From contig CP119321.1 of assembly GCA_029202445.1 (NCBI GenBank), forward strand, positions 1,116,001 to 1,180,000: a stretch of 64,000 nucleotides of DNA, in the 5' to 3' direction. Below, one piece after another: positions 43,286 to 55,904 of the stretch (position 1 is its first letter; each line of letters begins with the position of its first letter). The translations under genes and the position numbers were made by a program. This DNA is from Candidatus Microbacterium phytovorans (lineage in GTDB: Bacteria > Actinomycetota > Actinomycetes > Actinomycetales > Microbacteriaceae). The notes under the pieces were generated by a model. That model had not been told where the DNA came from and made no database searches. It was given only the letters and a program-made list of their open reading frames with translations.

Positions 43286-44698
43286 ATGACCGACGACGAG
43301 CGACCCGACCCCGACGACTTCGCGGAGATCCTCCGCAATCTGCTCGGCGGGCACGGCGGGTTCGACCCCGAGCAGCTCGAGCAGCTGCGCGGGTTGGGGA
43401 TCGACCCGGCGATGGCCCAGCAGATGATGCGCCAGCTCCAGGGCGCATTCGCCGCCGGCGGCGACGGCGGCATCGACTGGTCGTCGGCGCGCACGCAGGC
43501 ACTGCACTTGGCCAACAAGGACGGGCTGGGGATCACGACCGGCGACCGTCAGGACTTCGATCAGGCGTTCGGCCTCGCAACCCTGTGGCTCAGTGAGGCG
43601 ACGGCCATCTCCGATCTCCCGACGCCCGCTCGAGCGCTCACGCGCGGACAGTGGGTCGAGGCGACGCTCCCCGTGTGGCAGGAGCTCGCCGAGCCGGTAG
43701 CGACCTCGATCGCGGACGCGATGACCGAGGCCATCGGCACGCAGCTCCCGGAGGAGATGCGGGACGTCGCGGCCGGCGCCGGCCGCCTCATGCGGACGGT
43801 CGGCGGCTCGCTCTTCGCCGCGCAGCTGGGAGCGGTGATCGGCGCGCTGTCGCAGGAGGTGGTGTCGGGAGGCGATGTCGGCATCCCGGTGATGCCCGAC
43901 GGGCAAGCCGCCATCCTGCCGCAGAACTTCGCGGACTTCGGGCGCGACCTCGAGATCGACGACGAGCAGCTGGCGTTGTACCTGGCCACCCGCGAACTCG
44001 CCCACGCTCGCCTCTTCCGGCACGCCCGCTGGCTGCGCCTTCACGTCATCTCGCAGGTGACCGAGTTCGCCCGCGGCCTGCACGTCGACACCGACGCTCT
44101 CGAGGAACTCGCGTCGCGCTTCGATCCCTCGGCGCCGGAAGAACTCCGCCAGGCCCTCGAGTCCGGCGCGCTCCTCCCTGCGCGTTCCGAGGCCCAGACG
44201 GCGGCGCTCGCACGGCTGGAGAACCTCCTGGCGACGATCGAAGGATGGGTCGACGTCGTGACGGCGGATGCCACGATCCGGCTGCCCGCCGCCGACCGTA
44301 TCGCCGAGGCGGTACGTCGCCGACGTGCGGTGGGCGGGCCCGCGGAGCGCGCCATGGGTTCGCTGGTCGGACTCGAGCTGCGTCCGAGGCGTTTGCGCGA
44401 GGCGGCCGCCATGTGGCGCGCGGTGACCGACGCTGTGGGCACAGCGGAGCGCGACGCTCTGTGGGACTACCCCGACTTGATGCCTTCTGCCGAGGACATC
44501 GACGATCCTGCCGCTCTCGTGGAGAGGCTGCGTGCGCACGCCCGCGGCGACGCTCCTGTCCGCGACGCGATGGACGACGCCCTCGACGCGCTGCTCGCGG
44601 AGGCCGCCGACGCGGAGGCCGCGCCCGAGCAGGGGGAAGACCGCTCAGACCGGCGCGACTCCGCCGACGACGGCCCGGAAGGTCCGCGGCCCGTCTGA
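43286..44698 (+). CDS. Zinc-dependent metalloprotease family protein (DUF2342)
   Basis: A 470-residue protein of the DUF2342 / zincin-like family (Rv3195-like), sometimes labelled F420-associated. An N-terminal acidic helical region is followed by a helical core; LYLATRELAHARLF (~residues 231-244) is the family's HExxH-like metal-site helix in which the first His is absent, as is usual for this group. The C-terminal ~40 residues are acidic and disordered. ATG 43286 has GAAAGG upstream. True protease activity is unproven. Confidence 0.9.
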   Translation: MTDDERPDPDDFAEILRNLLGGHGGFDPEQLEQLRGLGIDPAMAQQMMRQLQGAFAAGGDGGIDWSSARTQALHLANKDGLGITTGDRQDFDQAFGLATLWLSEATAISDLPTPARALTRGQWVEATLPVWQELAEPVATSIADAMTEAIGTQLPEEMRDVAAGAGRLMRTVGGSLFAAQLGAVIGALSQEVVSGGDVGIPVMPDGQAAILPQNFADFGRDLEIDDEQLALYLATRELAHARLFRHARWLRLHVISQVTEFARGLHVDTDALEELASRFDPSAPEELRQALESGALLPARSEAQTAALARLENLLATIEGWVDVVTADATIRLPAADRIAEAVRRRRAVGGPAERAMGSLVGLELRPRRLREAAAMWRAVTDAVGTAERDALWDYPDLMPSAEDIDDPAALVERLRAHARGDAPVRDAMDDALDALLAEAADAEAAPEQGEDRSDRRDSADDGPEGPRPV

Positions 44699-44759
44699 GC
44701 CCCGCGTCACGCCGACGCGCGTCTGTGGACAGTTCTCGCGACGCACGCACGGGTGCGTC

Positions 44760-44765
44760 GACAAT
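44760..44765 (+). promoter_or_regulatory. -10-like GACAAT before 44772 gene
   Basis: GACAAT with a 6-nt spacer to ATG 44772; no ribosome site is seen. Confidence 0.35.
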
Positions 44766-44771
44766 CGATGG

Positions 44772-45644
44772 ATGCTTCGGCTCGCTCCCTCTCACGTGCC
44801 CCTGTGGCGATCTCCCACCTCGGTGCAGTTCGGCGCCGACGCCGTCGTTCGTGTCGACGACATCGCCCCCTGGCAGGAACGTCTGCTCGACGCGCTCGTC
44901 GACGGCATCCCCGACGCGATGGCCATTCCGCTCGCCGGGAACCTCGGCGCAGACCGCGACGCGGCTGAGCGCTTCCTGGAGCGGATCCGCCCGGCACTCG
45001 TCGACGGTTCCCCCCGCCCGCCGAGAGTCGCACTCGAACTCCCGGAGAAGCTCAGCCACGAGGAGGGCGCGACATTCGCACGGGCACTCTTCTCGAGCGG
45101 ACTCGACGTAGACGTGCGCCGGTGGTCGCATGACGGCCACCGTGTCCCCGTCGTCGTCGTGGCCCACCGTCTCCTCGACCCGCGTCGGGTGGCACAGCTC
45201 ATCCGTGCCGACATCGTGCATCTGCCCGTGGAGCTCTCTGGCGACCGGGTCACCGTCGGTCCGCTCGTCGTACCCGGCCGCACCGCGTGCGAAGCGTGCC
45301 GGCATGCGCACCGGCGCGACGCCGACTCCGCGTGGCCGGTCATCGCGGCGCAGCTCCTCTCGCGCGCTCCGACGCCCACCGATCCTGCGCTACTCCAGGA
45401 GTCGGCGCTCCTCGCCGCCCGTATGCTGCGCGGTGCGTCACCGGTCGAGCCGCCCGACGGTCGTCATCACGACGTGTCGCACTCGGTCAGCGTGTCGTCT
45501 TCGAGCGTGCGCCGGACCTGGCGCGCGCATCGCCCGCACGCAGAGTGCTTGTGCCGATCTCCTGAAGGAACCGCGAGCGCTGCCGCTCTCGATGCCCCGC
45601 CGCCTGAGCCCACGACAGCGACAGCGTTCGCGCGGCCCGCGTGA
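44772..45644 (+). CDS. ThiF/TOMM-cyclodehydratase-like protein (Rv3196 type)
   Basis: A 290-residue protein resembling the actinobacterial TOMM leader-binding or ThiF-like family. The diagnostic part is VGPLVVPGRTACEACRHAHRRDAD (~residues 160-183), with two Cys, and the C-terminal HAECLCRSPEGTASA (~residues 252-266) with a second Cys pair; together they could bind zinc. No precursor peptide gene or adjoining YcaO is visible, so it probably acts outside peptide modification. The last 158 bp overlap the 3' end of uvrD2 on the opposite strand. Confidence 0.8.
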   Translation: MLRLAPSHVPLWRSPTSVQFGADAVVRVDDIAPWQERLLDALVDGIPDAMAIPLAGNLGADRDAAERFLERIRPALVDGSPRPPRVALELPEKLSHEEGATFARALFSSGLDVDVRRWSHDGHRVPVVVVAHRLLDPRRVAQLIRADIVHLPVELSGDRVTVGPLVVPGRTACEACRHAHRRDADSAWPVIAAQLLSRAPTPTDPALLQESALLAARMLRGASPVEPPDGRHHDVSHSVSVSSSSVRRTWRAHRPHAECLCRSPEGTASAAALDAPPPEPTTATAFARPA

Positions 45645-47205
45645 TCCCGACGTAAGCGAGTCGCCTTTCCTCGTCGACCGCCTCGAACGTCATCGCGTAC
45701 GAGATCGGGAGGAGCCCCTCCGACAACCCGACCAGATGGACGTGCGGCCACTCCAGTCCCTTTGCCGCGTGCAGCGTCGCCAGGGTGACCGTGCGCAGCG
45801 TCGGCTCGTGCTGATCCTTGGCGCGGGCCTGCAAGCCGTCCGTGAACCGACGGAGTGTCATCCCCTCCGGAGCCTCCTCGGCCAGGCGCAGCAGCGCCGA
45901 GCGTGCTTCCCACGCCTCCCGCAGCGCACCCCCCGCGGCCGGCGGCTCGTCGGTGAGCCCGAGCGAGCGCAGCACGTCCCTCACCGCGGCGACGAATCCG
46001 CCCTCCGTGGGCGCGACCGACGCACCGCGCAGCGCCAACAACGCCTGGCGCACCTCGGGGAGGTCGAAGAAGCGGGTTCCGCCGAGCACGGAAGCAGGGA
46101 TGCCTCGGGCCGCGAGCGCGGCGAGGAGCTCGGCAGACTGCGCGTTGGCCCGGTACAGGACCGCGATGTCGCCGGGATCCTCGCCAGCCGCCAGGAGATC
46201 GGCGATCCGCGCCGCCACACCGCGGGCCTCCGCGACGTCGTCGGGGTAGGCGGTGACCTCCGGGGCCGCCGTGGTCTCGGCATCCGAGTGCAATCGCAGC
46301 GCGCCGGGCCTCCCGCGCATGAGCTCGTTCGCGACGTCGAGGATGCCGGGATCGGAGCGGTAGTTGCGCTCGAGTCGCACGACGGTGGCGTCCGCATACC
46401 GGTCGCCGAAGCCGAGCAGGTACCGAGGGTCGGCTCCCGCGAAGGAGTAGATGGTCTGGCTCGCGTCGCCGACCACGCACAGGTCGCGCCGGTCGCCGAG
46501 CCAGAGTTCGAGAAGTCGGTTCTGCAGGGGCGAGACGTCCTGGTACTCGTCCACCGTGAAGTGCCGATATTGCTCGCGCACCTGCGCCGCCACGCGTGGT
46601 TCCGCCTCCAGCATCCCCGCGCAGGCGAGCAGCACGTCTTCGAAGTCGAGCTGGCGTCGCTCGTCCTTGAGCTTCTCGTACGCGTGCTGAAGGTCGACGA
46701 GCGCCTGGATGCCGACGCCCCCGACCGCGTCGGGTCGATCGCGCGCCGCCTGCTCGATCGACCTGAGCGTGACCTTTCGCCATTCGATCCGCGCGGCGAC
46801 ATCGCGCAGCGTCGCGCCGTCGAGGCGGAGGCCCAAGGCATCCGCTGCCTGACCGAGCAGTTTCACCTTGCCCGACAGGATCGTGGGGGCGACGTCGCCG
46901 GCGACCTGCGGCCAGAAGTGATTGAGCTGGGCCAGCGCCGCCGCGTGGAAGGTCCGGGCCGCGACACCCGCCACGCCCAGAGCGCGCAGCCGGCCGCGCA
47001 TCTCACCCGCGGCCTTCGCCGTGAACGTGACCGCCATCACCCTCGTCGGGGAGTACGCGCCGGTGTCGACACCGTGGGCGATGCGGTGCGTGATGACGCG
47101 CGTCTTGCCGGTCCCGGCCCCCGCCAGGACGCACACCGGTCCGCGCAGCGTCGCCGCCGCCTCCCGCTGCGCGTCGTCGAGTCCGTCGAGCGGATCCGTC
47201 GTCAC
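45487..47205 (-). CDS. uvrD2: UvrD/Rep-type DNA helicase (UvrD2-like)
   Basis: A 572-residue SF1A helicase. Walker A AGAGTGKT at 28-35, Walker B VDEYQDV near 213, ERNYRS near 276, and TLHAAKGLEW with VGITRAAR toward the C-terminus are all intact. Mycobacterial UvrD2 is about 700 residues with a C-terminal HRDC/Cys-containing region; here the protein stops shortly after SRFLQEI, so those modules are missing. GTG 47205 overlaps the nudC stop by 4 nt. The 3' end overlaps the convergent ThiF-like gene. Confidence 0.92.
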   Translation of the reverse strand: MTTDPLDGLDDAQREAAATLRGPVCVLAGAGTGKTRVITHRIAHGVDTGAYSPTRVMAVTFTAKAAGEMRGRLRALGVAGVAARTFHAAALAQLNHFWPQVAGDVAPTILSGKVKLLGQAADALGLRLDGATLRDVAARIEWRKVTLRSIEQAARDRPDAVGGVGIQALVDLQHAYEKLKDERRQLDFEDVLLACAGMLEAEPRVAAQVREQYRHFTVDEYQDVSPLQNRLLELWLGDRRDLCVVGDASQTIYSFAGADPRYLLGFGDRYADATVVRLERNYRSDPGILDVANELMRGRPGALRLHSDAETTAAPEVTAYPDDVAEARGVAARIADLLAAGEDPGDIAVLYRANAQSAELLAALAARGIPASVLGGTRFFDLPEVRQALLALRGASVAPTEGGFVAAVRDVLRSLGLTDEPPAAGGALREAWEARSALLRLAEEAPEGMTLRRFTDGLQARAKDQHEPTLRTVTLATLHAAKGLEWPHVHLVGLSEGLLPISYAMTFEAVDEERRLAYVGITRAARTLSLSWAQAAGHRERQRSRFLQEIGTSTLRAGDARARSGARSKTTR

Positions 47206-48122
47206 GGCCGATCCTCGTCGGCATCGATCCAGTCGCGGATCAAACGGTGAGCGATCGAGGCCGCCCCCGGCAGCTGGACATCGCCGGCGCCGTCGAAAGC
47301 CGCGCGGAGCTCGGCGCGGGTGAACCACCGCACGTCCACGATCTCCTCGCCGTCCGCCCGAGCAGCGTCCGGATCGTCCGCGACCGCATGGAACCCGAGC
47401 ATGAGCGAGCGCGGGTAAGGCCACGCCTGCGAGCCGCGATAGCGGATGCCGCGCACGACAACCCCTGATTCCTCGGCGATCTCGCGCACGATGGCGGACT
47501 CGAGCGACTCGCCCGCCTCCACGAACCCGGCGAAGGCGGAGTACACGTTGCGCTGCGCCCAGCGGGCGTTCTTGCCCAGCAGCAGGCGATCGCCGGACGC
47601 GTCGGTGACGGCCACGATCACGGCAGGATCGGTGCGCGGGAAGTGCTCACGCCCGCACACCGTGCACCGACGCGACCATCCCGCCGCTCGCAGTTCCGTG
47701 ATCCCGCCGCATCGCGGGCAGTACCGCGAATCGAGCAGCCACCGGCCGAGCGCCAGCGCGTTCACGAACACGGATGCCTCTTCCGGCGGCAGGTCGCCGC
47801 CCACCGCGCGCAGCGCCCCCCACTCCGGTGTCGGGACGGGAGCCTCGGCGTCGGCGTCGAACGCGGCGACGAGCAGGGCGGCGCCCCCGGCATCCCTGCC
47901 GAGGAAGGCCCAGGCCGCCTCTCCTCTGACGGCATCCGGCGCCACGAACGCGAGCGAGCCCGTCGGCGCGAGCGGGGCCTGATCTCCCCACACCACGAGT
48001 ACGCGGCTCGCGGAATCCTTGCGCAGCTTCGCCACGAGATCGGACACCAGGCGCTCGTCGGCGGCTCGATCGTGCGATGCGCGCGCCAACGGAGGCGTAT
48101 GCGGGGTGTCCTTCGGCGACAT
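47202..48122 (-). CDS. nudC: NAD(+) diphosphatase NudC
   Basis: A 306-residue Nudix hydrolase cleaving NADH, and in some bacteria removing NAD caps from RNA. A zinc ribbon is seen in YCPRCGG...CTVCGREHFPR (~residues 133-160). The Nudix box is GFVEAGESLESAIVREIAEESGV (glycine to valine in full), and the NudC-specific SQAWPYPRSLMLGF follows. ATG 48122 has GAGAGG ~6 nt upstream. It leads the nudC-uvrD2 pair, an order kept in mycobacteria (Rv3199c-Rv3198c). Confidence 0.94.
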   Translation of the reverse strand: MSPKDTPHTPPLARASHDRAADERLVSDLVAKLRKDSASRVLVVWGDQAPLAPTGSLAFVAPDAVRGEAAWAFLGRDAGGAALLVAAFDADAEAPVPTPEWGALRAVGGDLPPEEASVFVNALALGRWLLDSRYCPRCGGITELRAAGWSRRCTVCGREHFPRTDPAVIVAVTDASGDRLLLGKNARWAQRNVYSAFAGFVEAGESLESAIVREIAEESGVVVRGIRYRGSQAWPYPRSLMLGFHAVADDPDAARADGEEIVDVRWFTRAELRAAFDGAGDVQLPGAASIAHRLIRDWIDADEDRP

Positions 48123-48173: not shown

Positions 48174-48179
48174 TACCCT
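48174..48179 (+). promoter_or_regulatory. -10 box TACCCT, leaderless promoter
   Basis: TACCCT followed by 7 nt and ATG 48187. Confidence 0.5.
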
Positions 48180-48186
48180 GGGGGGC

Positions 48187-49410
48187 ATGGCACGCTCACC
48201 CCTCACTCTAGCCGCGTCGGTGACGTCCGCTCTGCCTCGGGCGGGCGTGGTGAGCGTCGCCGCTCTCTCCGAGAACGCTGCCGGGCGGTATGACAGCGCG
48301 CTGGCGACGCTCGACGACGGTCGCCAGGTCGTCGTCCGTGTGCCCACCGATGCCGACGCCGATCGCGACCTCCGCGGGGAGGCTCGCGCCCTGCAGGCTC
48401 TCACCGCGGGGGTGCGCGCGGTGCTGCCGCTGGCCGCGCCCGTCATCCTGGGCGACACGGTGCTCGACGCGCGCCCGGTGGTCGTGCACTCGTGGCTGCC
48501 CGGCTACCGCGTCGACGCGGGCCACGTGCCCCCCGGTCCCGGAGTCGCAACGGAACTCGCTGCCGCCATCGCCGCCGTGCACGCTCTGCCCACCTCGGTC
48601 GTCCGCGACGGCGGCCTGCCGGCGCTCGATGCCGCCCAGGTGCGTGCGGAGGCCGAGCGGCTGCTCGACCGCGCCGAGGCCACCGGGGCGCTCCCGTTCG
48701 GCCTGTTGCGACGTTGGAGCGCTGCGGTCGCCGCCGACGAACTCTGGCGATTCGAGACGACGGTCGTCCTCGGCGGCGTCGACCCGGCATCGTTCCTGTT
48801 CGAAGACGATGCCGACGACGTCCCCCGCATCACGGGCCTTCTGCAGTGGGGCGGGTTGTCGGTGGGCGACCCTGCGGTCGATCTTCGATGGCTCGCCTCC
48901 GCTCCCGATGCGCGCACCGATGTGCTCGACGCCTACGCCGTCTCCTCCCCCCGCGCCGTCGACGGAGCGCTGTCAGAGCGTGCGCGGCTCCATGCCGAAC
49001 TGGAGTTCGCCTCGTGGCTCGTCCACGGCCACGCCGCAGGTTCGGAGAGCGTCGTCGCCGACGCCGTCGCCCTGCTCGAGGCGCTCGACGAAAGCGTGCG
49101 AGACGCTCCCCCGCTCGCGCAGGACTCCGTCACCGTCGACGACGCGTTCGCTGCCATCGGGCGCGTGCCGCAGGCTGCGGCCGTCGACACGTCGATGCAG
49201 ACCGACACGTACGACGCCGACGCCCTCTCCGAATACACCGCGGACGACACCGGATCATCGGCGCCGAGCGAAGACGAGACCGCTCCCCTCGAGCTGTCGG
49301 ACTGGGTGCGGCCCGAGCCCGCCGGCGATGCGACGGCCGCGCACGCGGACGACGACGATCCCGAAGCCGCGGCCCGCAACGCGCTGCGCCGCTGGACCGA
49401 AACCGCCTGA
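48187..49410 (+). CDS. APH-fold phosphotransferase homologue, predicted pseudokinase
   Basis: A 407-residue protein with the aminoglycoside-phosphotransferase/kinase fold: an N-lobe with VVVRVPTD (likely the beta-strand Lys replaced by Arg) and a C-lobe ending GDPAVDLRWL. The catalytic HGDxxxxN motif is replaced by LGGVDPAS at 195-202, so catalytic Asp and metal-binding Asn are lost; the second metal Asp (IDWG/IDFG) is Gln220 in LLQWGG. Residues ~310-407 are an acidic disordered tail. It is wedged between nudC and adnB. It is unlikely to phosphorylate anything and may be a binding or scaffold protein. Confidence 0.85.
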   Translation: MARSPLTLAASVTSALPRAGVVSVAALSENAAGRYDSALATLDDGRQVVVRVPTDADADRDLRGEARALQALTAGVRAVLPLAAPVILGDTVLDARPVVVHSWLPGYRVDAGHVPPGPGVATELAAAIAAVHALPTSVVRDGGLPALDAAQVRAEAERLLDRAEATGALPFGLLRRWSAAVAADELWRFETTVVLGGVDPASFLFEDDADDVPRITGLLQWGGLSVGDPAVDLRWLASAPDARTDVLDAYAVSSPRAVDGALSERARLHAELEFASWLVHGHAAGSESVVADAVALLEALDESVRDAPPLAQDSVTVDDAFAAIGRVPQAAAVDTSMQTDTYDADALSEYTADDTGSSAPSEDETAPLELSDWVRPEPAGDATAAHADDDDPEAAARNALRRWTETA

Positions 49411-49420
49411 CGCCCGCGCT

Positions 49421-52400
49421 CTAGCCGCGCAGGATGAGGTCGTCGGCCACGTAGTAGAGGACGACATCGATGTCGGACAGCGCGATGCCGTGTTTCGCGT
49501 GATACGCCCGGCGGTACAGCTCTAGCTGCACCATGCGCTCGGCGCGTTCGGCGGCTGTGCGAGGCGGGCGGCCGGTCTTCCAGTCCACGATCTCGATGCG
49601 GCCGTCGCGCTGGTACACCGCGTCGAGTTTGCAGATGACGACGTGTGGAGCGCCGTCGTCGAGCAGGTCGTCGGCCGTGAAGTCGATCTCCGTCTCCACC
49701 TCTATCGGTTGCAGGTCAGCCCATTCGGATGCCAGGAACCGCTCCTTCAGCTCGGCGAGAGCGTGCTGATCGGCCGACGATCCGATGAAGGCATCGTCGT
49801 CCTGCTCCCACAGGCCATCGTCGTCCGACGCGCCGGCACCGCTGATTCCCGATCGCTGCTCGACCCAGGCGTGGAAGAGGGTGCCCAGACGCGTTTGCCG
49901 GTACGGGCGTTCCGGCAGCGGACGGGCTGCCGCCGCTGCAGCCGCCGAGTAGTTCCCGACGAAGTCCTTGAACCGCGACGCCGGGATCCGTGTCGGCGCC
50001 GACGGGGCCGGCCCGGCCCGGCGGGCGTCGCGCTCGGCTAGGAGGAGCGACAGATCGCGTGACGGCGCAGGGCGCGGATCTCTCTGCGCGCGGGCGACGG
50101 CATCGGCGGCGGCCTGCACCCGTGACCGGCGGGAGCCCAACGGGTCCATCGGCCAGGCGAGCAGACGCTGCTGGTCGAGATAGGGGTTCTCCCCCGTATC
50201 TTCTGGCAGTTCCAGCGAGAGGTCGAGCGCATCGGCGATCTCGATGAGATAGCGGCTGGCGCGGCGTGCCGAGCGCGTGCCCGACCACGAGGCGCCCGTC
50301 AAGAGGAGGTGATCGCGCGCTCGCGTCACCGCGACGTAGGCGAGCCGCCGCTCCTCATCCTGCCGACGCTCGTCGAGTTCCGCGCGGAACACGGCGAGTT
50401 CGTCGCGCACGTCCTGTTGCGTGGGCGCGTCGTCGAGGGACCATCGCAGGCGCGGGAGCCAGCCGCGGTCACCGCGGAACGGGTAGGGCAGAACGCCGAA
50501 GCGCAGCCAACCCAAGCCGTCTCGTGCCTTCGCCGGCAGTTCCTCCTCGACGCAGCGGACGACCGCCACGGCATCCCACTCCAAGCCCTTCGAGCCGTGG
50601 ATCGTGAGCAGTTGAACCACGTCTTCCTCGGGCGGCTCCGTACGCGGCGCGAACTCGTCGAGTCGTTCCGCCCGGTCGAGCCAGGCGAGCAATGCGGACA
50701 GTGAGCCGGAGTCATCGGTGGCGAGGAACCCGTGCAGCTCGTCGACGAAGGCCCGCAACTGGTCACTGGCGATGCGTGCCGGACCGCGCGCTTCGTTCGC
50801 GGCCAGCTCGATGTCCAGGCGCAGTTCGATCTCGATGAGTCGCACGAGATCGGGCACCGGGAGTCCGATCGCTCTGCGCAAGCCCGCGAACACGGCCCCG
50901 GCGTCGCGCAGCCGCTCGATGCCCGCATCGCTGAATCCGTCGAGCCAACCGTGACCGGCCGGTTGCCGGACGATCCAGTCGAGGGCGTCGACGAGCGACG
51001 CCGCATCACTGCGACGCATGAGCGACACGACGTCGGCGTCGAGGGGCTGCAGAGCGGTGTCGTGCCGGACGAGTCGCCGGGCGAGGCTCGCGAGGGCCCG
51101 CAGATCGGCGAGTCCGATCGCCCACCGCGGCCCCGAGAGCAGCCGAATCAGCGCCGAACCGGCCGTCGGATCGCTGATGACGCGGAGCGCCGAGACCACG
51201 TCGACCACTTCCGGAGTCGACAGCAGGCCGCCGAGCCCCAGGATGCGGTGGGGAATCCCCCGGCGCGCGAGGGCGTCCGCGAAGCGCACCATGTGCTTCT
51301 TCGCGCGAAACAGCACAGCGCCGGTCGTCGCGCGCCCTGTCTCCGACCGGGTCGCCCTCAACGTCTCGAACCACGCGGCGACGCGCTCCGCCTCCGCGTC
51401 GACGTCTTCATCGAAGGCGACCTCGACGCGCCCGGCGGGAGCCTCGGGACGTGCACGCAGCGCGTCGACCCGCACGGGCGACCGCTCGGACAGCGGAGAC
51501 AGCACGGCGTTCGCCGCCCCCAGCACCGCCTCGCTGTTGCGCCAGCTCGTCAGCAGCGAGTACTCGGACGACTCCCCTCCCTCAGCGAACGCGGCCCGGA
51601 AGCCGCCGAGATTTCCCGCACTCGCGCCGCGCCAGCCATAGATCGACTGATGAGGATCGCCGACGGCCATGACCGCGGTGCCCGCGAACACCGTCGCGAG
51701 CAGATCACTCTGCACGACGGACGTGTCCTGATACTCGTCGAGGAGCACGACCCGGAATCTATCGCGCAGCTCCGTCGCCACGGCGGGGTGGCGCTGAGCG
51801 ATCTCGAGCGCTCCCGCAACCTGATCCGAGAAGTCGATCACCCCCCGCCGCCGCTTCTGACGCGCATACTCTCGAGCGAGCGCCGTGAGCACGCCCAGGC
51901 CGTCTATCGCGCCGAGGGCCTTCTCCACCTCGGCGTACACCCCCTGGCCACGGCGCGCCGACGGTCGATCACGGATCTCGGCCAGCCCTGCCGGGAATGC
52001 GGCGAGCTCATCGAGGTCGACGAGGTTGTCGGCGGCATCCCGAGCGATCCGCAGGGCGGCGTCGATGATGGTCGACGGTCGGTACTCGATCCCGTCCAGT
52101 CGCGGATCGTCGGCATCGTGCACGACACGACGCATGAGAAGCCAGGCAGCAGACTCACTGAGGACCACGGCCTCGGGGTCGCGCCCCACCCGCACGGCGT
52201 TCTCGCGCACGATGGCGTCCGCGAAGCTGTTGTAGGTGGCGACGGTCGGGCGGTGCAGGAGCGCATCGGGATCCGGATCGACGGCGAGACCCGGCGCAAG
52301 AGCGTCCAGCGCCACCCGGCGCGCGCCATCCCCCGCTCCCGCACGCTCGATCCGCGCGAACACGTCGAGGCGGCCCTCGGCGTGGAGCTCCGGAAGTGTC

Positions 52401-52708
52401 GACAGCATGCCGCGCCGCTCGAACTCCGCCAATCGCTGAAGCCGGCGATGGATGCGCTCGGCCAACTCGCCGGCTGCCTTCCGCGTGAACGTCAGACCGA
52501 GCACCTGATCGCGACGCACGAGGCCGTTGGCGACGAGCCACACGACACGGCCCGCCATCGTCTCGGTCTTGCCGCTGCCCGCGCCGGCGACGACGAGCGC
52601 AGGCGCAAGAGGTGCAGAGATCACGGCAGCCTGCTCGTCGGTCGGCGGGAACTGTCCGAGGGCCGCGGCGATGACGCGCGGAGAGAGAAGGGGCACGGAT
52701 GCCGTCAC
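49421..52708 (-). CDS. adnB: AdnB-like helicase-nuclease subunit
   Basis: A 1095-residue RecB-type motor-nuclease matching AdnB of the actinobacterial AdnAB end-resection complex. Walker A AGAGSGKT at 41-48, helicase motifs VLLDEYQDTS and TIHGSKGLEW, and a C-terminal RecB-family nuclease with LDAVYQRDGRIEIVDWKTG then QLELYRRAY near the end are intact. GTG 52708 overlaps the adnA stop by 4 nt; an ATG 36 nt upstream is possible but less coupled. AdnB acts with AdnA to unwind and trim double-strand breaks for recombination. Confidence 0.92.
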   Translation of the reverse strand: MTASVPLLSPRVIAAALGQFPPTDEQAAVISAPLAPALVVAGAGSGKTETMAGRVVWLVANGLVRRDQVLGLTFTRKAAGELAERIHRRLQRLAEFERRGMLSTLPELHAEGRLDVFARIERAGAGDGARRVALDALAPGLAVDPDPDALLHRPTVATYNSFADAIVRENAVRVGRDPEAVVLSESAAWLLMRRVVHDADDPRLDGIEYRPSTIIDAALRIARDAADNLVDLDELAAFPAGLAEIRDRPSARRGQGVYAEVEKALGAIDGLGVLTALAREYARQKRRRGVIDFSDQVAGALEIAQRHPAVATELRDRFRVVLLDEYQDTSVVQSDLLATVFAGTAVMAVGDPHQSIYGWRGASAGNLGGFRAAFAEGGESSEYSLLTSWRNSEAVLGAANAVLSPLSERSPVRVDALRARPEAPAGRVEVAFDEDVDAEAERVAAWFETLRATRSETGRATTGAVLFRAKKHMVRFADALARRGIPHRILGLGGLLSTPEVVDVVSALRVISDPTAGSALIRLLSGPRWAIGLADLRALASLARRLVRHDTALQPLDADVVSLMRRSDAASLVDALDWIVRQPAGHGWLDGFSDAGIERLRDAGAVFAGLRRAIGLPVPDLVRLIEIELRLDIELAANEARGPARIASDQLRAFVDELHGFLATDDSGSLSALLAWLDRAERLDEFAPRTEPPEEDVVQLLTIHGSKGLEWDAVAVVRCVEEELPAKARDGLGWLRFGVLPYPFRGDRGWLPRLRWSLDDAPTQQDVRDELAVFRAELDERRQDEERRLAYVAVTRARDHLLLTGASWSGTRSARRASRYLIEIADALDLSLELPEDTGENPYLDQQRLLAWPMDPLGSRRSRVQAAADAVARAQRDPRPAPSRDLSLLLAERDARRAGPAPSAPTRIPASRFKDFVGNYSAAAAAAARPLPERPYRQTRLGTLFHAWVEQRSGISGAGASDDDGLWEQDDDAFIGSSADQHALAELKERFLASEWADLQPIEVETEIDFTADDLLDDGAPHVVICKLDAVYQRDGRIEIVDWKTGRPPRTAAERAERMVQLELYRRAYHAKHGIALSDIDVVLYYVADDLILRG

Positions 52709-55700
52709 GTCGCGCTCACCGCCCCGACGGTGTGGATGCGGCACAGGCCGCGAGTGTGATCGTCACGGCAGTGGGCTTCGTAGGGAGCGAGGAACTCGCG
52801 CGCGCCGATCACCTGGACCGCGTCGCGGATGCGGGCGAGGAAGGCCTCGCGGGTCTCGTCGTCGAACGGCGGTTGCGTGGGAGTGGCGTAGGGCGTGGTG
52901 CGGGTCTGCCGGAGCACGAGGAGCTTCGCGCCGCCCGTCGGCATCCCGGCCGCCGCCGCGATCGCGCCCCGCTCCTGAGCGAGCTGGTAGGCGCTCAATT
53001 GAGGATGCGCTGCGGCGGCGGCCGCGCCGGTCGCCTGCGTGCGCCCGGTCTTCAGGTCGACGATGACGACCGTGCCCGACGGCGTGAGCTCCACCCGGTC
53101 GACCGTCCCACTGATGACGGCCGGCATCGCCGCACCCTCTACCGGCACCTCGAGCTCGAAGTGTGGTTCGGCGCTTAGGAGGCGCGTGCCGTCGGTCTCC
53201 CGGTCACGCAGATAGCGAGCCAGCCGCGAGATCAGGTCGCGGGCGCGGGTGCGTTCGGCTCGTTCGATCCACGCCGCCTCGAATTCCAGCTCACCCCACC
53301 GCTGCTCCACGAGCGTCCAGAGCGCCGCGTCATCGCCGCCCTCGGCATGCTCCAACGCCGCGTGGATCAACGTGCCGAGACCTGCCGTGACGCTGGCACC
53401 GTCGCCGCCGAGATCGCTGATCACCCAATTGAGCTGACACTCGTCGATCGATTCCAGCTTCGACGGCGAGATGCGCGCAGGCTCCGTCTCGAGGTCGTAG
53501 AGCGGCGTGGTCGTCGACGGCGAAGCGAGCCCGTACCAGTGCTCCGGCGACGCGCCGGGCACCCCGGCGTCGGCCAGAAGAGCGAGCTGACCGGCCGCGT
53601 CGCGCCGAACCGCCGGCGGCACGCCGTCGGCGGTGAGCGCGCGACGATGCTGAGCGACGAGGCCCCGCAACGAGAGCGGATGCTCCGCGGATGCCGGAGC
53701 CGGCGACGTGGACGGGAGGAGCTCGAACAGCGCGCTCGGGCCGGTGTCGTCGTCGTCGACCGCGGTCACGATCAACAGGGACCGTGCCCGCGACACCGCA
53801 CGGGCGAAGAGTCTGAGCTCGTCGTGGAGCACCCCCCGCCGGCGATCGACGGTGGCGGGGTCGATGCCGGCCGCGAGCCCGAGACGCCACGTCTCCAGGA
53901 GGCTCCCGCGCACGCGCAGGTTGGGCCACACCCCGTCCTGGACGCCCGCCACCACGACGGTGTCGAACTCCGCGCCGAGCGCGCCGGCGGGGGTCATGAC
54001 GCGCACTGCCTGGGGCGGCAGGGGCGCACTCAAGCGGTCTTCCGCGACATCGGAGTCGCGCACGCCACGCAGGAAGTCCAGGGGCGACGTGCCGTCTTCG
54101 CGCTCGCCGTGCCGCTTAGCGGCCTGGAAGAGCGCGACGACGGCATCCAGGTCGCGACCCGCCTGCTCGGCGAGCGGGCCGTGTCCGCGCGACGTCTCGT
54201 GCCACGCGCGCTCGCGGCCCGAACGCTCCCACACCGTCCAGAGCAGCTCGTGGGCCGTGGCGCCCTCGGCGATCTGCGCGCGGACCAGGCCGAGCGTCTC
54301 GGCTGCGCGGGCCGCGCGACGCCCTTCACGTGTGTCGAGGAGTTCGAACTCGAGCGGATGCCGCATCGCCGACAGCAGCAGCTCACGCGGCGCCGACTCG
54401 TCGGGCTCCTCCCGCCGCAGTGCATCGTGCCGCAGAGCCGTGCGCAGCCGGCGCAACTCGACGGTGTCCAGTCCCGTGGCGCGCAGAACGTCGACGACGT
54501 CGTCGGGCTCCCAGACGTCGGGGTCGACAGCGGCGAGCTCGACCACCCACAGCAGGTCTCGCACCGCGGCCGAGGAGGCGAGAGTGCGCGTGGGGCCCGT
54601 CGCGCCGGTCGGCACGTCGCGCGCACCCAGCTCATCCTCGAGCGCGGCGACCTGGCGTGCGTCGTGGGCGATCACGGCGCACTGTGCCCACGGCACGCCG
54701 TCGTGCACATGACGTTCACGCAGCAGGCGCGCGATCGTGTCGTACTCCTCGGCTGTCGACCGCAGCGTGCGCACACGCACCGAGGCACGCACGTCGGCGG
54801 CGTGGTCCTCTCCGCCGGGTGGTCGCCGATGCGAGACGATGCCGCCGGCACCGATCCGGGAGGTCACCTCCGCCACGAGGTCGCGATGCGCGCCCGTACC
54901 GCGGTGCACCTTCGGCAGGACGTGCACGGGAAGCGACGCGGCGAGGCGCGCGAAGTTCTCGGGCGAGGCGCCGCGGAACGACCCCGAGCTGATGTCGGGG
55001 TCGCCGAAGGCCAGCACGCTCGCGCCGCGATCGCGCAGCGCTTCGAGAAGCTCCACCCCGCCCCTGGTGAGCTCCTGCGCATCGTCGACGAGGACGACCC
55101 GCAGCCGCGAGACGGCGCCGAGCTCCCGCGCATCGGACGGCAGCGAACGCAGCAGCCGGACAGCCTCACGCAGGAGGCCCGCGGCATCCCTGTGCGCGCC
55201 GCGCATCCGCGCGCGCACGTCGTGGTACTCGGCGGCGAAGCCGGCCAACGAACGCCAGATCTCGACGTCGTCTTCTGCGGCACGCCGCGCAAGAGCGGGC
55301 GCATCGATTCCCAGCGTCGTCATCTCGGCGAGGAACGCGCGCACCTCGGCACGGAACCCACGGGTCGCGCGCACCTCGGAGGGGAGCCACGACGGCCACC
55401 GCGACGGGCCCGTCGCCTCGTCTTCGGCGTCGCCCGCGAGCAGGTCCTGCACAATGCGGTCTTCGTCAGGACCGGTGAGCAACTGGGGCGGGTCGGCGTC
55501 GGCGGCGACGAGTACCGATCGGACGATCTGGAAGGCGAGGGCGGCCACCGACTTCGCCAGCGGTCCTGCCGTCGCCACGCCGACCGCGAGCGCGAGATCG
55601 TCACGCAGCGCCGTCGCCGCGGGACGGGTCGGGGTCAGCACGACGAGCTCCTCCGGCGTGATCCCGCCGTCGGAGATCAGGCGGGCGGTGCGCGTGAGGA

Positions 55701-55815
55701 TCGTCGACGTCTTCCCGGTGCCCGCTGCCCCCGCCACGACACCGGAGGCCTCGGGCGGCAGCTCCACGATCGCGCGCTGGGCGTCGTCGACGGCCCGGAC
55801 GGGAAGGAGCGGCAT
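52705..55815 (-). CDS. adnA: AdnA-like helicase-nuclease subunit
   Basis: A 1036-residue partner of AdnB. Walker A GAAGTGKT is at residues 29-36 and VLVDDAQEL is the Walker B-like motif, while later helicase motifs look weaker than in AdnB, fitting the subsidiary motor role known for AdnA. The C-terminal nuclease motif VVIVDLKTGRTQ and QLSAYQLAQ are present. ATG 55815 lies 7 nt after TAGCGT, so the mRNA is probably leaderless. It is divergent from the DUF3107 gene. Confidence 0.92.
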   Translation of the reverse strand: MPLLPVRAVDDAQRAIVELPPEASGVVAGAAGTGKTSTILTRTARLISDGGITPEELVVLTPTRPAATALRDDLALAVGVATAGPLAKSVAALAFQIVRSVLVAADADPPQLLTGPDEDRIVQDLLAGDAEDEATGPSRWPSWLPSEVRATRGFRAEVRAFLAEMTTLGIDAPALARRAAEDDVEIWRSLAGFAAEYHDVRARMRGAHRDAAGLLREAVRLLRSLPSDARELGAVSRLRVVLVDDAQELTRGGVELLEALRDRGASVLAFGDPDISSGSFRGASPENFARLAASLPVHVLPKVHRGTGAHRDLVAEVTSRIGAGGIVSHRRPPGGEDHAADVRASVRVRTLRSTAEEYDTIARLLRERHVHDGVPWAQCAVIAHDARQVAALEDELGARDVPTGATGPTRTLASSAAVRDLLWVVELAAVDPDVWEPDDVVDVLRATGLDTVELRRLRTALRHDALRREEPDESAPRELLLSAMRHPLEFELLDTREGRRAARAAETLGLVRAQIAEGATAHELLWTVWERSGRERAWHETSRGHGPLAEQAGRDLDAVVALFQAAKRHGEREDGTSPLDFLRGVRDSDVAEDRLSAPLPPQAVRVMTPAGALGAEFDTVVVAGVQDGVWPNLRVRGSLLETWRLGLAAGIDPATVDRRRGVLHDELRLFARAVSRARSLLIVTAVDDDDTGPSALFELLPSTSPAPASAEHPLSLRGLVAQHRRALTADGVPPAVRRDAAGQLALLADAGVPGASPEHWYGLASPSTTTPLYDLETEPARISPSKLESIDECQLNWVISDLGGDGASVTAGLGTLIHAALEHAEGGDDAALWTLVEQRWGELEFEAAWIERAERTRARDLISRLARYLRDRETDGTRLLSAEPHFELEVPVEGAAMPAVISGTVDRVELTPSGTVVIVDLKTGRTQATGAAAAAAHPQLSAYQLAQERGAIAAAAGMPTGGAKLLVLRQTRTTPYATPTQPPFDDETREAFLARIRDAVQVIGAREFLAPYEAHCRDDHTRGLCRIHTVGAVSAT

Positions 55816-55822
55816 GGCATCC

Positions 55823-55828
55823 ACGCTA
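55823..55828 (-). promoter_or_regulatory. -10 box TAGCGT, leaderless adnAB promoter
   Basis: Reverse-strand TAGCGT with a 7-nt spacer to ATG 55815. Confidence 0.45.
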
Positions 55829-55904
55829 GCCGCAGCGCCCGACACTCAGCGGTGTCGTAGAGTCGAAGTGGCGCGTGAGATCACGTGCCGGAAAGGCAGT
55901 CACC

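Follow-up and report, generated by a model that had tools for sequence, protein, structure and literature searches.

A retained, predicted pseudokinase with a macrolide-kinase-like fold, encoded in a helicase gene block of Candidatus Microbacterium phytovorans

For the macrolide kinase MphH, the accessible part of PMC5760710 names Glu196, His201 and Asp214 as the catalytic residues. Bacterial proteins that keep a kinase fold while their catalytic motifs are gone have been reviewed as seven Hanks-type families (ActPs1-3, GLW, CP1, DYD and DLHK), some of them mainly actinobacterial; the word 'aph' is absent from the main text of that review, as far as it is accessible (PMC12599244). The families described there are relatives of serine/threonine kinases, whereas the protein presented here, which likewise keeps its fold but not its catalytic motifs, is placed by Pfam and structure matches in the APH/macrolide-kinase branch. 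Another actinobacterial pseudokinase, MviN of mycobacteria, forms a pair with FhaA and is thought to work via the reading of a phosphothreonine. We found no description of the present protein in the literature, most subscription papers being outside our reach.

The gene belongs to Candidatus Microbacterium phytovorans, and its 407-residue product had been read in an initial annotation as a catalytically dead APH-like kinase. It lies in the window, by which we mean the whole stretch of DNA analysed: 64,000 nucleotides of contig CP119321.1, positions 1,116,001 to 1,180,000. Upstream, on the opposite strand, are encoded a NUDIX/zinc-ribbon protein (nudC) and then a UvrD-type helicase; downstream, again on the opposite strand, two UvrD-helicase/PD-(D/E)XK proteins (Table 1). 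We take the three helicase genes to be uvrD2, adnB and adnA from the gene order, and the location between nudC-uvrD2 and adnBA is as first annotated. Near the UvrD-type helicase, ORF 44532-45644 (+) matches TIGR03882 (TOMM leader-peptide-binding/cyclodehydratase-like) with E 2e-7, below the cut-off.

Table 1 Features of the pseudokinase gene and its neighbours, in positions of the window.
Feature	Position	Strand	Basis or remark
Pseudokinase gene: APH/Mph fold and acidic tail, 407 aa	48187..49410	+	ORF, Pfam, predicted structure
TACCCT, resembling a -10 element, 13 nt upstream of ATG; leaderless promoter by prediction	48174..48179	+	sequence; TANNNT here conserved order-wide
Codons 195-202, LGGVDPAS replacing HGDxxxxH/N	48769..48792	+	alignment
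Codon 220, Gln at the metal-binding Asp position	48844..48846	+	alignment
Codons 227-236, GDPAVDLRWL scaffold motif	48865..48894	+	alignment
Tail, codons about 308-407: acidic, mostly disordered by prediction	49108..49407	+	tail census, AlphaFold2
nudC-like NADH pyrophosphatase, divergent neighbour	47202..48122	-	start 48122 by eye; mechanical ORF extends to 48458
UvrD-type helicase (uvrD2 by position)	45487..47424	-	mechanical ORF, start unrefined
adnB-like helicase-nuclease, convergent neighbour	49421..52744	-	mechanical ORF
adnA-like helicase-nuclease	52705..55845	-	mechanical ORF

The APH-like fold that had been proposed is confirmed. The protein matches the Pfam APH family (PF01636) over residues 38-249 with 49.9 bits, for a cut-off of 23.2; its only other Pfam match, TilS, is sub-cut-off. 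The closest solved relatives by sequence are MphA (5igh, E 5e-13) and MphH (E 4e-8), and a profile of the family returns the same top two, with E 1.9e-34 and 2.3e-32, respectively. In the AlphaFold2 model, based on 67 sequences, the core has a pLDDT of 84-98 in each ten-residue block up to residue 300, and the tail is mostly below 52, except for a C-terminal helix (392-406). Aligned with VIA-align, the modelled core finds its best match in MphH (5uxc; Z 26.3, rmsd 2.9, 280 residues). Matches within 1 of the top Z include APH(2'')-IIIa and MphA, and the best 50 are Mph or APH proteins. NCBIfam cut-offs for Mph are not reached: the best score, with MphA, is 48 of 550 bits.

The likeness to MphA and MphH extends over residues 1-305 and includes the RVP strand and the DPAxDL motif. 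The window protein differs from them in having lost all three catalytic positions, in its extra acidic tail and in its single, order-wide locus. Glu196, His201 and Asp214 of MphH align with Gly197, Ser202 and Gln220, so that none of the residues defining an Mph enzyme (a catalytic Asp/Glu, a His/Asn and a metal-binding Asp) is present. A kinase fold, the absence of canonical catalytic residues and a retained gene together make the protein a predicted pseudokinase.

The initial annotation had HGDxxxxN replaced by LGGVDPAS at residues 195-202. The replacement is exact; the ancestral motif is better written HGDxxxxH/N, since MphA and many intact orthologues have His in place of the Asn. We followed these positions through 374 orthologue rows, unique within each set, where genus, family and order denote kinship groups of the genome collection around the window's genome. 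Of 121 genus genomes with a match, 98 contribute one row each; a further 108 rows represent 80 other genera of the family, and 163 unique rows come from outside the family (88 order and 80 named rows, five shared). In the genus, the catalytic Asp occurs in 0/98 rows (Gly in 96), His is changed to Leu in 95 and the metal Asp is present in 39/98. Whether the degenerate motif is fixed among orthologues had been proposed as a check; in the genus, what is fixed is that HGD has lost its His and its Asp, together with the residues replacing them (Leu195 in 95/98, Gly197 in 96/98). Gln220 is not fixed: it was correctly seen in the window protein and is found in only 2/98 rows. Other genera of the family have the catalytic Asp in 3/108 rows and the metal Asp in 10/108. 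Over the whole family the catalytic Asp is missing from 203/206 rows, both the full triad and the pair of Asp are found in 0/206, and a single row (L311) combines Glu with Asp. In the GDPAVDLRWL scaffold, described at first as kept along with the acidic tail, Asp228 and Asp232 are found in 374/374 rows.

As far as examined, this loss is particular to the gene among APH proteins. In ten control genomes of the genus we obtained 42 APH-family matches and read 30 loci, five of which were this gene; the other proteins carry both the catalytic and the metal Asp in 25/25 cases (19 by pattern, six by eye).

Outside the family, the 163 rows have the catalytic Asp in 137 cases, Glu in 2, the metal Asp in 53 and both Asp in 46: the loop is usually kept and the metal ligand usually lost. 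The full triad (Asp/Glu, His/Asn, Asp) occurs in 30/163. Intact orthologues, which the initial annotation would have taken as a sign of recent decay, do exist, for example in Occultella or Cellulomonas, but all lie in other families; the loss is therefore old and recurrent rather than recent. A quick IQ-TREE phylogeny of 146 rows (142 of the 374 orthologue rows and four of the outgroup), made without the motif columns, separates the orthologues from MphH-like and other APH copies (SH-aLRT 98). It requires a minimum of 16 state changes for the catalytic Asp and 29 for the metal Asp, counts in which Glu is scored as loss, the outgroup is included and no direction is given. The full-triad form would be the ancestral one. 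Family f4, whose rows evolve fast, is placed by the tree within the window's family with long branches, which is probably an artefact of the tree. Separate MphH-like copies with HGE[IV]YPAH and LDW stand outside the orthologue clade; they come from the same genus (L095, in G042) and from family f7 (L183, in G403).

That the protein is a still-active enzyme of unusual chemistry, using a relocated or substituted catalytic residue or performing a non-kinase reaction such as AMPylation, strikes us as quite improbable. AMPylation by a kinase-like protein has an analogue in SelO. The fixation of the replacing motif in the genus would suit such chemistry, as would Glu190, which lies seven residues ahead of the lost Asp of the catalytic loop and is fixed in the genus only (94/98, variable elsewhere), and the conservation of lineages with HGD but no metal Asp. 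However, no conserved acid two residues further on replaces the catalytic Asp (position 199 is Gly in 25, Gln in 22, Asp in 18 and Thr in 17 of the 98 genus rows), and the metal position drifts within the genus.

The gene gives a single match in its own genome and is retained almost everywhere in the order. It was found in 118/119 genomes of the genus, in 247/249 of the family (225/225 of good quality) and in 241/248 of the order (228/233 of good quality), the seven misses there having 250-1060 contigs; genomes of about 0.8-0.9 Mb still carry it (G414, G532, G133). At the level of the class, a single-sequence search matched 19/197 genomes, 16 of them in-order. With the profile, 166/197 genomes match something, at no more than 100.8 bits outside the order versus 290-443 for the 16 in-order genomes. 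A few genus genomes contain a second, weak match (G042, G077). We also considered a defence-system gene and set the idea aside, there being no PADLOC match up to E 1.

Selection was estimated from sixty close pairs with a core identity of 0.88-0.985, each sequence being used once. For the core, the 24 genus pairs have a median dN/dS of 0.07 (range 0.03-0.13), the 10 pairs from other family genera 0.05, the 7 order pairs 0.08 and the 19 named pairs 0.09 (up to 0.21). Choosing pairs by protein identity lowers the absolute values; the sets can be compared with each other more fairly. Clades that lack catalytic residues are constrained at least as much as HGD clades. In the tail, dN/dS is higher, 0.06-0.78 where defined.

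A reading of the gene as the decaying remnant of a macrolide (antibiotic) kinase is hard to reconcile with these values. Macrolide kinases are indeed the nearest families, the motifs changed many times, and in one genus genome of low completeness (G090) the gene is split over three frames. The selection data strongly oppose decay all the same, as do the near-universal retention, the conserved promoter element, the undiminished constraint on clades that lack catalytic residues and the existence of separate intact MphH-like copies in the same genus and in f7; we hold this reading to be highly improbable. A recent pseudogene or a sequencing artefact is ruled out by the retention, the motif census and the low dN/dS.

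The neighbours were checked by script, in flanks mostly of 1.5-3.5 kb. In the genus, nudC is divergent upstream and adnB convergent downstream in 98/98 rows. At least one of nudC, the UvrD-type helicase and adnB is in place in 108/108 rows of other family genera, 86/88 of the order and 80/80 named rows, giving 372/374 in total. On inspection the two exceptions are still in the same block: in L164 adnB is 2.4 kb away, and in L145 the gene is inverted in place. This last inversion, between adnB and nudC (G455:C76:564-7736), puts all these genes on one strand. In family f4, the gene adjoins the UvrD-type helicase in 8/8 genomes and adnB is matched on a different contig or at a distance of more than 80 kb; conversely, 20 rows keep adnB with neither nudC nor a UvrD-type helicase within the flank examined. 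A search for the nuclease part of adnB, which is divergent in sequence, left three of 30 genomes without a match: G199 and G507, incomplete or fragmented, and G430, listed as 100% complete.

The gene has in addition a predicted promoter of its own, a newly noticed order-wide element of leaderless type. TANNNT stands 11-16 nt before the start codon in 97/97 genus rows, 108/108 of other family genera, 79/81 of the order and 79/80 named ones (363/366), with an offset of 12 or 13 nt in 360 rows. In a control interval 41-46 nt upstream it occurs in no row of any set, and in the window TANNNT precedes by 12-13 nt only 9/1759 and 8/1950 [AG]TG triplets on the two strands. Shine-Dalgarno-like words are found in 2, 7, 3 and 0 rows (genus, other family, order, named). 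Start codons are ATG in the family, with one GTG, and mostly GTG outside it. Altogether, this predicts a leaderless mRNA from the gene's own promoter. A LexA-like pattern searched as an SOS box with up to 3 mismatches was uninformative (the window has 88 matches for 41 expected, and the interval from nudC to the gene has none).

Outside the order, one genome (G619, L200/L453) has an Mph-like gene with HGDLCPEH and LDW, convergent with adnB-adnA. An Exo_endo_phos ORF intervenes there, no nudC match occurs in the 12.3 kb covered and no TANNNT is found before the mechanical start. It is possibly a distant orthologue with the ancestral motif.

With nudC in divergent and adnB in convergent orientation to it, the gene is linked to DNA repair by its position only, and such stability of gene order would be expected from function and from simple descent alike. 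By that position, UvrD2 and AdnAB are candidate partners. In the accessible part of PMC13309787, dUTPase is a protein regulator of mycobacterial AdnAB. Together with the expected neighbours in 372/374 rows and the two others in the same block, this precedent would suit a partner protein dedicated to regulating UvrD2 and/or AdnAB in the processing of double-strand breaks, a refinement of our preferred reading that names the partner. We consider it tentative and on the unlikely side: the gene is on the strand opposite to both neighbours and has its own predicted promoter, f4 keeps it by the UvrD-type helicase with adnB elsewhere, the 20 rows keep adnB with neither other neighbour in the flank examined, and descent alone can stabilise the order of a whole block.

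The acidic tail evolves fast and bears, as newly noticed in the sequences, short motifs specific to the family and to the genus. Its median length is 138 residues in the genus and 63, 54 and 9 in the other sets (other family, order, named); in tails of at least 40 residues, D+E minus K+R amounts to 12.5-22%. T[AGQE][PT][IVL] is found in 63/98 genus tails and 59/108 of other family genera (shuffle means 7.0 and 4.9), and elsewhere in 5/86 and 4/80, near shuffles. A[LMFI]x[RH]W occurs within the last 45 residues of 90/98 genus tails (shuffle mean 0.04), and a stricter form in 80/98 and in zero tails of the other three sets. The window protein has DETAPLEL and, in its C-terminal helix, RNALRRW. 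By analogy with MviN and FhaA, the acidic-Thr-x-Pro-Ile motif could suit a phosphothreonine reader domain, although MviN belongs to another branch of the kinase fold. Seven orthologues were scanned for a known domain fused to their long tails, with nothing above cut-off. Being lineage-specific, the tail motifs cannot be the order-wide function.

The protein probably descends from a macrolide-kinase-like enzyme and is now fixed as a binding protein without catalytic function. Its catalytic residues are lost, and the gene is nonetheless retained near-universally, in the same place and under strong selection; most likely, then, it binds other molecules and is not an enzyme. What had been described as a dead kinase beside recombination motors survives as a retained, constrained pseudokinase with a probable binding or regulatory role; a tie to the motors stays conjectural, given the gene's orientation, its own predicted promoter and the f4 genomes. 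What we infer is that the protein is inactive, that it binds, that its cleft holds a ligand and that its transcription is leaderless. The ancestor would have been an active small-molecule kinase within the nudC-uvrD2/adnBA block, and phosphotransfer would have been lost at or near the base of the family, the protein being retained as a binder of something. Its ordered kinase-like domain (1-305) would do the binding, the cleft perhaps still occupied by a nucleotide or ligand, and the disordered acidic tail would offer short motifs to a partner: acidic-Thr-x-Pro-Ile/Val/Leu in the family and a C-terminal ALRRW-type helix in the genus.

Several observations weigh against this non-catalytic binding protein. 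A catalytic residue can be replaced, as MphH has Glu for Asp according to the accessible text of PMC5760710, and Glu190 near the loop is genus-fixed. In the genus, 39/98 rows still have the metal Asp. Beyond the family, the catalytic Asp is mostly intact (137/163) and inactivity there rests on the metal Asp, which 53/163 rows contain, so that some catalysis may belong to the function across the order; where the triad is kept, the protein may be enzymatically active.

The protein reaches sub-cut-off scores with macrolide-phosphotransferase models, and could be mistaken for a resistance enzyme even though it is without the residues needed. A wider proposal, which we regard as unlikely, sees it as a core protein of the whole order, its antibiotic-kinase fold converted into a regulator of the UvrD2/AdnAB genome-maintenance block that would be non-catalytic and possibly essential, catalytic residues being lost repeatedly in separate lineages and the binding function kept. 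Should the partner be UvrD2 or AdnAB, the protein would give an entry into how AdnAB is regulated, a subject called largely unexplored in the accessible part of PMC13309787. The orthologues form a natural series, from the full triad through HGD without the metal Asp to no catalytic residue at all, that is useful for the study of kinase folds without catalysis.
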